64,000 nt of DNA from Eubacterium sp. Its GTDB lineage: Bacteria > Bacillota > Clostridia > Lachnospirales > Lachnospiraceae. This document shows, piece by piece, positions 6,057-10,589 of this stretch (position 1 is the stretch's first letter; each line of letters opens with the position of its first letter). The stretch lies in assembly GCA_022794015.1 (NCBI GenBank), contig JAAWDZ010000060.1, positions 31,009 through 95,008 on the forward strand, read 5' to 3'. A program made the position numbers and the translations under genes. Under the pieces are notes generated by a model. The model saw only the letters and a list, made by a program, of their open reading frames with translations. It did no database searches and was not told the origin of the DNA.

Positions 6057-7595
6057 ATGAAGACCGATATTACGGGAATTGCAAAAAGTATTATGCAGGT
6101 GAGAAGCAGCTTAAAAGCCGAAGCTTCAGGCAATTCGAAAGATCAGAATCTGTCCGTCAGTTTTTTTGAGCTGATGAGCCAGAACACGCTTTCATCGAAT
6201 GTGCGGACAGAGTCCGGTTCTGATGAACTGGTATACCGTGTAGAGTCCAGCAGTAACGACACCACGCAGAATGCATATGATACCTGTGCAAACCCTGTTA
6301 AAAATGTAGCTGTCAAAGAAGAGGCGCCACCGGAGGAAATTCTTTCGGAATCATCGGAGCTGTTAGAAGAGTACGAAGAGGAAATTCGGGCTGTTTTGAA
6401 AGAACAGTTTGGCATAACAGATGAAGAAATTGATGCGGTTTTAGACAGTCTGGGCATCAGTCTTTTTGATCTTGGAAACATACAGGATCTGACTGCTTTT
6501 GTACAGGAGCTGACAGGAGAAGATATCGGCGCGCTGTTTTTAAGTGAAGCTTTTCAGAATGTGAAAGATCAGGTGATGCAGGCAACGGAAACGCTGTGCG
6601 CAGAGCTTGGTATTACAAAGGAAGAGTGGGCGGCGCTTGCAGAATCTCTTTCACAGCAGATGCACCCGGCAGAAGAAGTTCCGGTATCTGCAGAAACCGT
6701 CGGTACGGAAGCAATATTGCAGACAGAAGGCTTCGATAAAACGGCGGGACAGACATCATCTGTTCAGGAGGATGTGTCACAGGGAACGGGCACAGAAATA
6801 TCAAAAGAGCAGACCATTACAGCTGTGGTACAAAATGCGGAAGAACCGCAAAAGGAAGTGCCGTCAGAGCAGAAATCCATGGAATCTGCAGAAGAAGCAG
6901 ATGCTGTCGTACAGAAAAATCCGGATGCCGGACAGGAGACAGCAGATTCTGGACAGGAGTCTGATTTGGGGCAGAAGAAACAGGAATTGCCGGAAGCAGT
7001 AAAAGCAGCAACGCCGGATATGGCGAATGAACACGCCGGAACCGTCGTTTTTTCCGAAAGTCAGAGCATTATGCCGCAAGAAGCTGCGATACCGCAGGAG
7101 GCGGCAGTGCCTTATGCCAGCCAGGTGGACGCCATTGAGCTGATTGAACAGATCGCAAGGCAGGTCAGAGTTACCATTACGTCTGAAGTTACTTCTATGG
7201 AGATGCAGCTGAATCCGGAGAATTTAGGTAAGATTTACCTGAATGTTACCGAGAAAGAAGGCGCGGTCCGTGCTCAGATTACGGCACAGAATCAGGTTGT
7301 AAAAGAAGCGCTCGAAACACAGGTTGCGGAGCTGAGGCAGACGTTAAACCAGCAGGGTATTAAGGTAGATGCCATTGAAGTTACAGTAGCGTCCCATGAG
7401 TTTGAGCAGAACTTAGAAGAAAATGCAAGACAGGAAGAACAGATGCGTCAGCAGATGGAAGAATCGCAGAAAAAAGCGAGAAGGAGTCTGAATTTAAGTG
7501 AACTGGACGGACTGTCAGGGCTGATGACTGAGGAAGAGCAGCTTGTAGCGCAGATTATGCGAGACAATGGCAATCAAGTGGATTTGACAGCATAA
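6057..7595 (+). CDS. fliK: Flagellar hook-length control protein FliK
   Basis: C-terminal VTSMEMQLNPENLGKIYLNVTEKEGAVRAQITAQNQVVKEALETQVAELRQTLNQQGIKVDAIEV (Flg_hook domain). Confidence 0.93.
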   Translation: MKTDITGIAKSIMQVRSSLKAEASGNSKDQNLSVSFFELMSQNTLSSNVRTESGSDELVYRVESSSNDTTQNAYDTCANPVKNVAVKEEAPPEEILSESSELLEEYEEEIRAVLKEQFGITDEEIDAVLDSLGISLFDLGNIQDLTAFVQELTGEDIGALFLSEAFQNVKDQVMQATETLCAELGITKEEWAALAESLSQQMHPAEEVPVSAETVGTEAILQTEGFDKTAGQTSSVQEDVSQGTGTEISKEQTITAVVQNAEEPQKEVPSEQKSMESAEEADAVVQKNPDAGQETADSGQESDLGQKKQELPEAVKAATPDMANEHAGTVVFSESQSIMPQEAAIPQEAAVPYASQVDAIELIEQIARQVRVTITSEVTSMEMQLNPENLGKIYLNVTEKEGAVRAQITAQNQVVKEALETQVAELRQTLNQQGIKVDAIEVTVASHEFEQNLEENARQEEQMRQQMEESQKKARRSLNLSELDGLSGLMTEEEQLVAQIMRDNGNQVDLTA

Positions 7596-7642: not shown

Positions 7643-8344
7643 ATGCCATTAATGGCACCAGTAGAAAATGGTAAAGTAGTAGAAACAGAAACATCTGCCT
7701 CTGCAAAATCCTCTAAAGCGAATTCCAGCAGCACGTCCGGTCTGGACAAAGAAGCGTTTTTACAGCTTCTGGTAGCGCAGATGCAGTATCAGGATCCGTT
7801 AGAGCCAATGGATAATACAGAGTATATCTCGCAGCTGGCGACATTCTCACAGCTGGAGGCAACGCAGAATATGGCAGATACAATAAGTCAGGGGATGGCA
7901 AACAGCCTTGTCGGAAAGTATGTTTTCCTGAATGTAACGGATAAGCTGGGCAATGTAAATACGGTTGCAGGCAAAGTAGATTATGTGATGTATGAAAACG
8001 GCGAGGTATATCTGGCTGTAAATGACGGAATTTATTCTCTGGCAGATCTGGATACGGTAGCTGACAGCGCTTATTATGAAGCGTTTGAAATGGCAGCTGC
8101 ATTTTCAGCAGCGATTGCCAAATTACCGACAGTGGGCACAGTATCGCTTTCAGACGCAAAGGCTGTAGAAGATGCAAGGGCTATGTATGATGCGATGAAT
8201 TCTTACCAGAAGGGATTTGTACCCCAGGAAGATCTTGCCAAGCTGACAGCATTGGAAGAAAAACTGAAAAAACTTAAGCCTTCCGGCGGAGACTCTTCCG
8301 ATGATAAGGAAGATAAGGAGGATACAGAAGTAAAAGACGGCTGA
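7643..8344 (+). CDS. flgD: Flagellar hook assembly protein FlgD with unusual C-terminal helical domain
   Basis: LDKEAFLQLLVAQMQYQDPLEPMDNTEYISQLATFSQLEATQNM is diagnostic of FlgD; see findings for the C-terminus. Confidence 0.93.
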   Translation: MPLMAPVENGKVVETETSASAKSSKANSSSTSGLDKEAFLQLLVAQMQYQDPLEPMDNTEYISQLATFSQLEATQNMADTISQGMANSLVGKYVFLNVTDKLGNVNTVAGKVDYVMYENGEVYLAVNDGIYSLADLDTVADSAYYEAFEMAAAFSAAIAKLPTVGTVSLSDAKAVEDARAMYDAMNSYQKGFVPQEDLAKLTALEEKLKKLKPSGGDSSDDKEDKEDTEVKDG

Positions 8345-8361: not shown

Positions 8362-8760
8362 ATGGAAAAGATCACAAACCGGTTTACATCCATTGAACAG
8401 GTTACGGGCGAATTTTTAAAAAAAACCTCCGCAAATGCAAGGACGCTTGGAGAGGCCCCGGTTTCTTTTGGAGAAATCCTGTGCCAGAAACAGTCGGAAA
8501 CGGCATCTGAGCTGAAATTTTCCAAGCACGCTTCTATGAGATTGGAAAAGCGGAATATCAGCCTTACGAGAGAACAGAACGAGCGTTTGGAGAACGGCGT
8601 TCAAAAAGCCGGGGAAAAAGGAATCCGGGAGTCTCTTGTTATGGTAGATTCATTAGCATTTATTGTAAATGTTCCCAGTAAAACCGTTGTAACCGCAATG
8701 GATCAGGCGGAAACACAAAGTAACATATTTACCAATATTGACGGCGCGGTCATTATGTAG
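8362..8760 (+). CDS. TIGR02530-type flagellar operon protein
   Basis: FSKHASMRLEKRNISLTREQNERLENGVQKAGEKGIRESLVMVDSLAFIVNVPSKTVVTAMD; between flgD and flgE. Confidence 0.85.
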   Translation: MEKITNRFTSIEQVTGEFLKKTSANARTLGEAPVSFGEILCQKQSETASELKFSKHASMRLEKRNISLTREQNERLENGVQKAGEKGIRESLVMVDSLAFIVNVPSKTVVTAMDQAETQSNIFTNIDGAVIM

Positions 8761-8840: not shown

Positions 8841-10589
8841 ATGATGAGATCATTATTTTCTGCTGTGACAGGACTTAAAACACATCAGACAAAAATGGAC
8901 GTAATTGGTAACAACGTATCAAACGTAAATACAGCAGCATTCAAATCTTCAAGGGTAGTTTTCAGCGATATTATGTATCAGACTACTTCCGCAGCATCTG
9001 CAGCAAATGGATTAACCGGCAAGGGCGGTGTCAATGCGAAGCAGATCGGGCTTGGTGTTACAACCGGTGCAACGAAGGTTACGATTACCTCTCCCGGTTC
9101 TGCCGAAACGACAGGAGATCCGTTCGACATCCGTCTGACGGATAAGGTATCTACGAATTTCTTTATTGTAAATAACGGTATGCAGAACGTATTTACAAGA
9201 GCGGGTTCGTTTTACATTGACGGAGCTGGTAACCTGGCCATGACTTCGACCGGTTATACGGTTATGGGCTGGCAGGTAGACCCGGCGACCGGGGATATCC
9301 GCAAGGATACCGTATCCGCATTGCGCGTGATGCAGGAGAAGAATCTTACATCCGCGCCGGAAGCAACATCAGCCGGAACGATAGGCGGCATTATAGACAA
9401 CAATGATGTCAATGTAACAAGCGATGAGGGTCACAAAATGAACTTAAGCTTCTTTGACAAATTGGGGTATCGGTATATTGCACAGTTTTCATTGAAACTG
9501 GTTGATGAAAAGACGGGAGATTATACCATAGAACTTACGGATATCCTGGATTCGGACAATAAATCCATTCTAACTGAATACTTAGAAGGCGGCGGAGATT
9601 TGGCGGCGGTATTCGGAAGGAATACAACAGCGAAGAAAACGTACCCGATTACGGATGACAAAATCAGTTATATGACAGACGGAGATTATAATCTGGGTTA
9701 TCAGGGAGAAGGTTATTATTACTCATATGCGACCTTTGATACGGCGGGAAATGCGATTACCGAGTACGTACAGGTAACAATGGATATTGCCAATAATACA
9801 TATACGGTTCCAAGTTATACCTATTACGCAGATGCACAAAGCGGTATCGATCAAACTGGAGGCATCACGACAAATGAGCAGACAGGTTCCGTTACGGAGC
9901 TGTTTGGAATTACACAGGCACAGCTGAACGCAAACGGCAGTGCGACCCCGCCGACAGGTTCTTTCAACACAACGACAGGCGCTTACGAATATACCGTACC
10001 TGCAGTAAACTACACGTTAAAAATCAATCCGGATAACGGAGAATTTTCCTATGTTGGTATGCAGGGTTCGGATCAGGTGACGTTAAATCTGGCAGACACC
10101 CTTGGCAATAAGTTTTTGGACATTGATATTGATTTTTCAACCTGTTTAAATTCAGATAACGGCGGAAAGAGTACAATTAGTGCGGAAGGAGGTTTTGAAA
10201 ACGGGACAATCGGCAAAGGAAAACCCCTCGGCGTAATGATTGGCATAAGCATAGACAATAACGGTAAGATTTTTGGCGCATACGACAACGGAAATACAAT
10301 CCTGCTTGGACAGATTGCCGTAGCACAGTTTGCAAATGCTTCCGGCCTTGAAAAAATAGGGGAAAACTGCTATAAGACGACATTAAACTCCGGCGATTTT
10401 GACGGAATCGGCGTGGAAGTCGGAGCAGATGGCAGCAGTATGACGTCCGGTGAGCTGGAAATGTCCAACGTTGATTTGTCAACAGAATTTACGCAAATGA
10501 TTATTACCCAGAGGGGATTCCAGTCAAATTCACGTATTATTACGGTATCTGACACACTTCTGGAAGAATTGATTAATTTGAAACGATAA
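8841..10589 (+). CDS. flgE: Flagellar hook protein FlgE
   Basis: MRSLFSAVTGLKTHQTKMDVIGNNVSNVNTAAFKSSRVVFSD; C-terminus NVDLSTEFTQMIITQRGFQSNSRIITVSDTLLEELINLKR. Confidence 0.97.
   Translation: MMRSLFSAVTGLKTHQTKMDVIGNNVSNVNTAAFKSSRVVFSDIMYQTTSAASAANGLTGKGGVNAKQIGLGVTTGATKVTITSPGSAETTGDPFDIRLTDKVSTNFFIVNNGMQNVFTRAGSFYIDGAGNLAMTSTGYTVMGWQVDPATGDIRKDTVSALRVMQEKNLTSAPEATSAGTIGGIIDNNDVNVTSDEGHKMNLSFFDKLGYRYIAQFSLKLVDEKTGDYTIELTDILDSDNKSILTEYLEGGGDLAAVFGRNTTAKKTYPITDDKISYMTDGDYNLGYQGEGYYYSYATFDTAGNAITEYVQVTMDIANNTYTVPSYTYYADAQSGIDQTGGITTNEQTGSVTELFGITQAQLNANGSATPPTGSFNTTTGAYEYTVPAVNYTLKINPDNGEFSYVGMQGSDQVTLNLADTLGNKFLDIDIDFSTCLNSDNGGKSTISAEGGFENGTIGKGKPLGVMIGISIDNNGKIFGAYDNGNTILLGQIAVAQFANASGLEKIGENCYKTTLNSGDFDGIGVEVGADGSSMTSGELEMSNVDLSTEFTQMIITQRGFQSNSRIITVSDTLLEELINLKR

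Follow-up and report, generated by a model that had tools for sequence, protein, structure and literature searches.

A helical module of surface-protein type at the C-terminus of the flagellar hook cap protein FlgD in Lachnospiraceae

Why should a flagellar hook cap protein end in a module of the kind seen in surface proteins, and what might such a module do at the tip of a growing hook? The question is raised by an open reading frame at positions 7643..8344 (+) of the window, the stretch of 64,000 nucleotides from Eubacterium sp. contig JAAWDZ010000060.1 that was analysed. An earlier note, made from the sequence alone, had proposed that this frame encodes FlgD fused to a helical module of surface-protein type; the translation matches the sequence quoted there, and the homology of the module is borne out by profile searches in both directions (see below). 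In the open-access literature searched, we found no description of a FlgD with this architecture.

Layout of FlgD and its locus

The frame is identified as flgD, encoding a hook-cap protein of 233 aa, by Pfam PF03963 (E 2.3e-24, 85.8 bits against a cut-off of 27, residues 14-82) and by its position between fliK and flgE. The hook-operon setting consists, in order, of fliK for hook-length control (6057..7595, +; PF02120), flgD, a small gene for a PF12611 'Flagellar_put' protein (8362..8760, +) and flgE (8841..10589, +), which encodes the hook protein of 582 aa, the partner that we propose for the module.

In an AlphaFold model built with 41 relatives, the N-terminal end of FlgD comprises a disordered start and then a weakly predicted region. 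The N-terminal hook-cap domain occupies residues 14-82 (7682..7888, +) and a stalk-type long helix residues 59-88, followed by a five-stranded tudor/SH3-like barrel at residues 93-140 (7919..8062, +; pLDDT 92-97). Directly after the barrel comes the appended helical module at residues 142-211 (8066..8275, +), with helices at 142-159, 169-184, 187-190 and 195-211 (pLDDT 97-98). The module is also predicted to fold in isolation (mean pLDDT 97 when modelled alone), while residues 214-233 (8282..8341, +) form a disordered acidic tail of low pLDDT that evolves fast. The earlier note had located the module correctly but drawn it slightly too narrow, since it runs from residue 142 to the close of its last helix at residue 211.

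The same note had contrasted the module with the canonical C-terminal domain of FlgD, a contrast that needs one correction. The Fn3/Ig part of that domain is indeed missing, with neither a Pfam match nor such a fold in the model; the tudor-like barrel, on the other hand, has not been replaced, and the module follows it. Foldseek matches of the barrel were to tudor barrels, Hfq barrels and H. pylori FlgD (4zzf), all of them weak. The short FlgDs of Bacillota likewise have no room for an Fn3/Ig part, which is not essential to the FlgD class. Compared with the Salmonella-type FlgD (PF03963; pentamer structure, PMC8595650), the window protein has in common the cap domain, the stalk-type helix, the tudor-like barrel and the location of its gene between fliK and flgE, but it lacks the Fn3/Ig part and has the helical module after the barrel instead. 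The window FlgD is thus an ordinary hook-cap protein, with cap domain and tudor-like barrel, extended by a helical module that folds on its own.

Kinship of the module with repeats of surface proteins

The helical module belongs to no named family: there is none for it in Pfam or NCBIfam, a Pfam scan of the module up to E 10 was empty, including for FIVAR (PF07554), the GA module, S-layer homology and cell-wall-binding domains, and neither an SLH or CWB2-type match nor a match in PHROGs was found. Searches of solved structures by protein sequence and by module profile returned only chance-level matches to the module, among them an S-layer protein at E 0.43; in fold searches of solved structures the module alone gave a best E of 2.9, and the matches of the whole FlgD model were dominated by the barrel.

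A profile of the module was made from 34 FlgDs of different genera, aligned in 73 columns to a 73-residue query with zero internal gaps. In the same genome this profile matched two further proteins, a 3325-aa frame (38.7 bits, E 2.9e-9), the part read of which has a beta-galactosidase small chain and Laminin_G_3, and a 1556-aa frame (37.2 bits, E 8.4e-9) that contains CBM_6 and Big_2; both are large proteins of carbohydrate-active or surface type. Elsewhere in Clostridia the module is widespread in large proteins of surface type, and is found mainly in large frames and frequently in tandem. Four such proteins (L133 in G027, L120 in G571, L124 in G440 and L125 in G474) have 3-8 copies each. In one surface protein, three copies give way to an acidic stretch, then a membrane segment and positive charges, and the protein barely meets the model of a sortase B sorting signal. 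Lying in tandem arrays between other domains, for example before a sortase-type anchor, the module of the surface proteins looks like a structural spacer.

Profile-profile comparison of the FlgD modules with the surface copies gave E 6.9e-16. The reverse search, with a profile of surface copies mostly collected with the FlgD profile, some of which were also reached independently from a single surface sequence, found the window FlgD at E 3.9e-15, compared with E 0.68 for the best of 1800 shuffled FlgDs. On the strength of these reciprocal and profile-profile matches the C-terminal module of FlgD is, at the level of sequence, homologous to the tandem-repeat module of secreted or wall-anchored-type proteins of Clostridia, and the unnamed module is a candidate new Pfam family. 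It is hardly conceivable that the likeness arose by chance, from helical composition alone and with independent origins. Short helical repeats do easily yield weak matches and the module has no match among solved structures, but the E-values are far from those of shuffled sequences, and the L-P, T-L-x-D, Y-D-x-L/M and Q-K positions of FlgD and surface modules are in register.

The two kinds of copy can nevertheless be told apart. While FlgD and the unnamed surface repeat (e.g. L002, L003, L120, L124, L125, L133) have the same 70-residue module, the FlgD copy is usually single and sometimes double, and has residues of its own between Y188 and F192 (8204..8218, +) as well as a YxxA motif conserved at the junction where the module joins the barrel. 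When 114 FlgD modules were aligned to 29 surface repeats, the core was common to both, but position 188 was Tyr in 96% of the FlgD modules and mainly T, E, D or I in the surface copies, and position 192 was Phe in 90% of the FlgD modules, unlike the surface copies. Position 185 is mostly Met in FlgD modules, and Y144 and A147 of the junction, ahead of the common core, are nearly invariant. Seven FlgDs (L013, L029, L129, L132, L250, L263, L298) have tandem helical modules. In these, F192 is Phe in 7/7 first copies as against 1/7 second copies, and the second copies are without most of the FlgD-specific residues. This pattern, as far as sequence conservation can tell, points to a contact made by the copy adjacent to the barrel.

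Distribution and history of the module

We surveyed 200 Lachnospiraceae genomes, nearly all of different genera, and obtained a FlgD match in 107 of them. The helical module was present in 46 of the 90 FlgDs extracted (a few of them, e.g. L087, assigned from alignment alone), so that the recurrence in related species, which the earlier note would count as support, is found; nearly all of the 46 belong to a single clade. Another 17 (L051, L059, L066, L068, L069, L071, L073, L075, L077-L081, L083-L086) have a different module of surface-protein type at this position behind the barrel, resembling CBM_X2 (PF03442) or the Shr-like Hb-interacting domain (PF07550), which is all-beta and has no kinship with the helical one; three of these were scanned with Pfam and the rest assigned by alignment, and the best scores were E 4e-5 to 1e-4, most matches lying under the curated cut-off. 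The remaining 27 have neither module, and module-less FlgDs are still located in flagellar loci. A fusion that the earlier note had called unexpected is so only in part: the module on FlgD is an old trait of about half of the sampled FlgDs of the family, not a peculiarity of one strain.

Within the genus, this FlgD is present in 15/15 genomes. In one of these (G668) FlgD terminates inside the module, and in another (L005, G143) the flgD match runs over two frames and through stops, indicating a frameshifted gene or an assembly error. All of the 80 nearest matches from named genomes have the module, which is not a frequency because these were picked by similarity; they are mostly labelled Lachnospiraceae or assigned to Roseburia, Acetatifactor, Agathobacter and Acetitomaculum ruminis, with a few other or vague labels. 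Across the phylum, a FlgD match was obtained in 234 of 300 genomes, and nearly all of the listed alignments from outside the family end at the end of the barrel, the longer ones mostly crossing stop codons. Among 291 genomes of the class, no FlgD was found among the module matches read outside Lachnospiraceae, where the listed places of FlgD and of the module never coincide. In the FlgDs examined, then, no module-bearing FlgD was seen outside Lachnospiraceae.

A tree of FlgE plus the core columns of FlgD places 35 helical FlgDs and three without the module on one branch (SH-aLRT 99). The trait marks one large clade of Lachnospiraceae and is most simply explained by a single gain, although the tree is unrooted and leaves gain and loss indistinguishable. 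In a tree of FlgD only, some module-less FlgDs are nested within the helical clade; since most of these shift out of it once the FlgE columns are added, we do not claim repeated losses of the module.

Possible roles of the module in the hook cap

What does the module do for FlgD? In the Salmonella structure, the C-terminal petals of FlgD help efficient hook assembly in a manner described as unclear (PMC8595650), and in C. jejuni extra FlgD sequence has been suggested to meet additional domains in a larger FlgE (PMC8595650). With these precedents, we tentatively put forward, at somewhat less than even likelihood, that a helical module was recruited to a normal hook cap, where it enlarges the petals and serves as a guide or spacer for an enlarged FlgE. 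We infer the following mechanism. Since it follows the barrel directly, the module would enlarge the petals of a multi-subunit cap around the hook tip. There it could structurally guide or space the large outer domains of FlgE subunits as they arrive, and these domains appear to be enlarged in the same clade as the helical FlgDs. Y188 and F192 would be the likeliest contact residues, be it to the barrel, to a neighbouring petal or to FlgE. From its ancestry in surface proteins the module would have brought stability as a helical building block, and no function in wall binding.

Another reading, doubtful but the most serious of the alternatives, is that of an inert spacer: a helical unit, stable and easy to export, would lend FlgD bulk or solubility, have no specific partner, and be kept as it is harmless and its fold needs maintenance. 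About half of the FlgDs of the family do without the module in flagellar loci, its relatives in surface proteins resemble tandem spacers, and it evolves faster than the barrel and the cap domain, with a median dN/dS within the genus of ~0.19 compared with ~0.11 and ~0.05, values that are rough because synonymous changes are close to saturation. The tail, however, stands at ~0.69, and the module is under purifying selection; moreover, its near-invariant FlgD-specific residues are less kept in second copies, and it has remained a single gapless domain over dozens of genera, all of which argues against inertness. Docking to the wall, as suggested in the earlier note, drew support from none of our tests, and we consider it improbable that the module binds a wall or surface glycan or the S-layer, and in this way keeps the cap tethered or docked to the cell surface, or FlgD on the hook. 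Homologous modules do occur in wall-anchored-type and carbohydrate-active proteins, and the unrelated CBM_X2-like module takes the same place in other FlgDs. The module itself, though, has no known binding function, Pfam family or SLH or CWB2-type match, and in surface proteins it forms tandem, spacer-like arrays between other domains. The hook, besides, is built beyond the wall under a cap that serves as a temporary scaffold, and its tip recedes from the wall as it lengthens. Between wall docking and a match of larger cap petals to larger hook subunits, we prefer the latter. Least probable of the functional readings, and very unlikely in our view, is that the helical end helps FlgD to reach the export gate or to unfold for export. 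Other early flagellar subunits do have a C-terminal helical export signal, but Salmonella FlgD without residues 191-232 is exported normally (PMC10936197), a result that disfavours such a signal in FlgD, and module-less FlgDs exist within the same family.

Matching of petals to hook subunits receives some support from the lengths of FlgE. The median is 564 aa for the 35 genomes with the helical module, 486 aa for the 13 with the beta module and 457 aa for the 21 with neither. FlgE is longer alongside the helical module (Mann-Whitney p 8e-7; PGLS for length versus module, p 0.003), but the tree leaves only ~1 well-supported independent contrast behind this association, which is for that reason only suggestive and could be accounted for by shared history; we have set aside the Mann-Whitney value as independent proof. 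Some genomes with the module have a short FlgE (442-491 aa). The source of the extra length is a central insertion, which in the window FlgE comprises 139 residues (249-387; 9585..10001, +). This insertion varies between genera and is longest in the clade of helical FlgDs, where FlgE reaches up to 770 aa.

A bolder extension of the petal reading, which we regard as unlikely though worth stating, is that FlgD offers an exchangeable socket at its C-terminus, to which lineages of Lachnospiraceae add a helical repeat, a CBM_X2-like beta domain or nothing, tuned to the outer-domain size of their own FlgE. If true, the hook cap would be a lineage-specific assembly jig and not a uniform part. Petals with either of two unrelated modules or none, beside FlgEs of differing size, in any case constitute a natural set of swaps, which would make the role of petals in folding and joining FlgE, called unclear in PMC8595650, accessible to testing. 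Other Clostridia have FlgDs that, like that of the window, are extended past the first barrel. Of 30 FlgDs read, the helical module was found only in the window's own and in 0/29 of the others. The FlgDs of other Clostridia (L155-L184) and L064, of ~280-350 aa, read as 2-3 tandem barrel-like repeats, not as a barrel plus Fn3.
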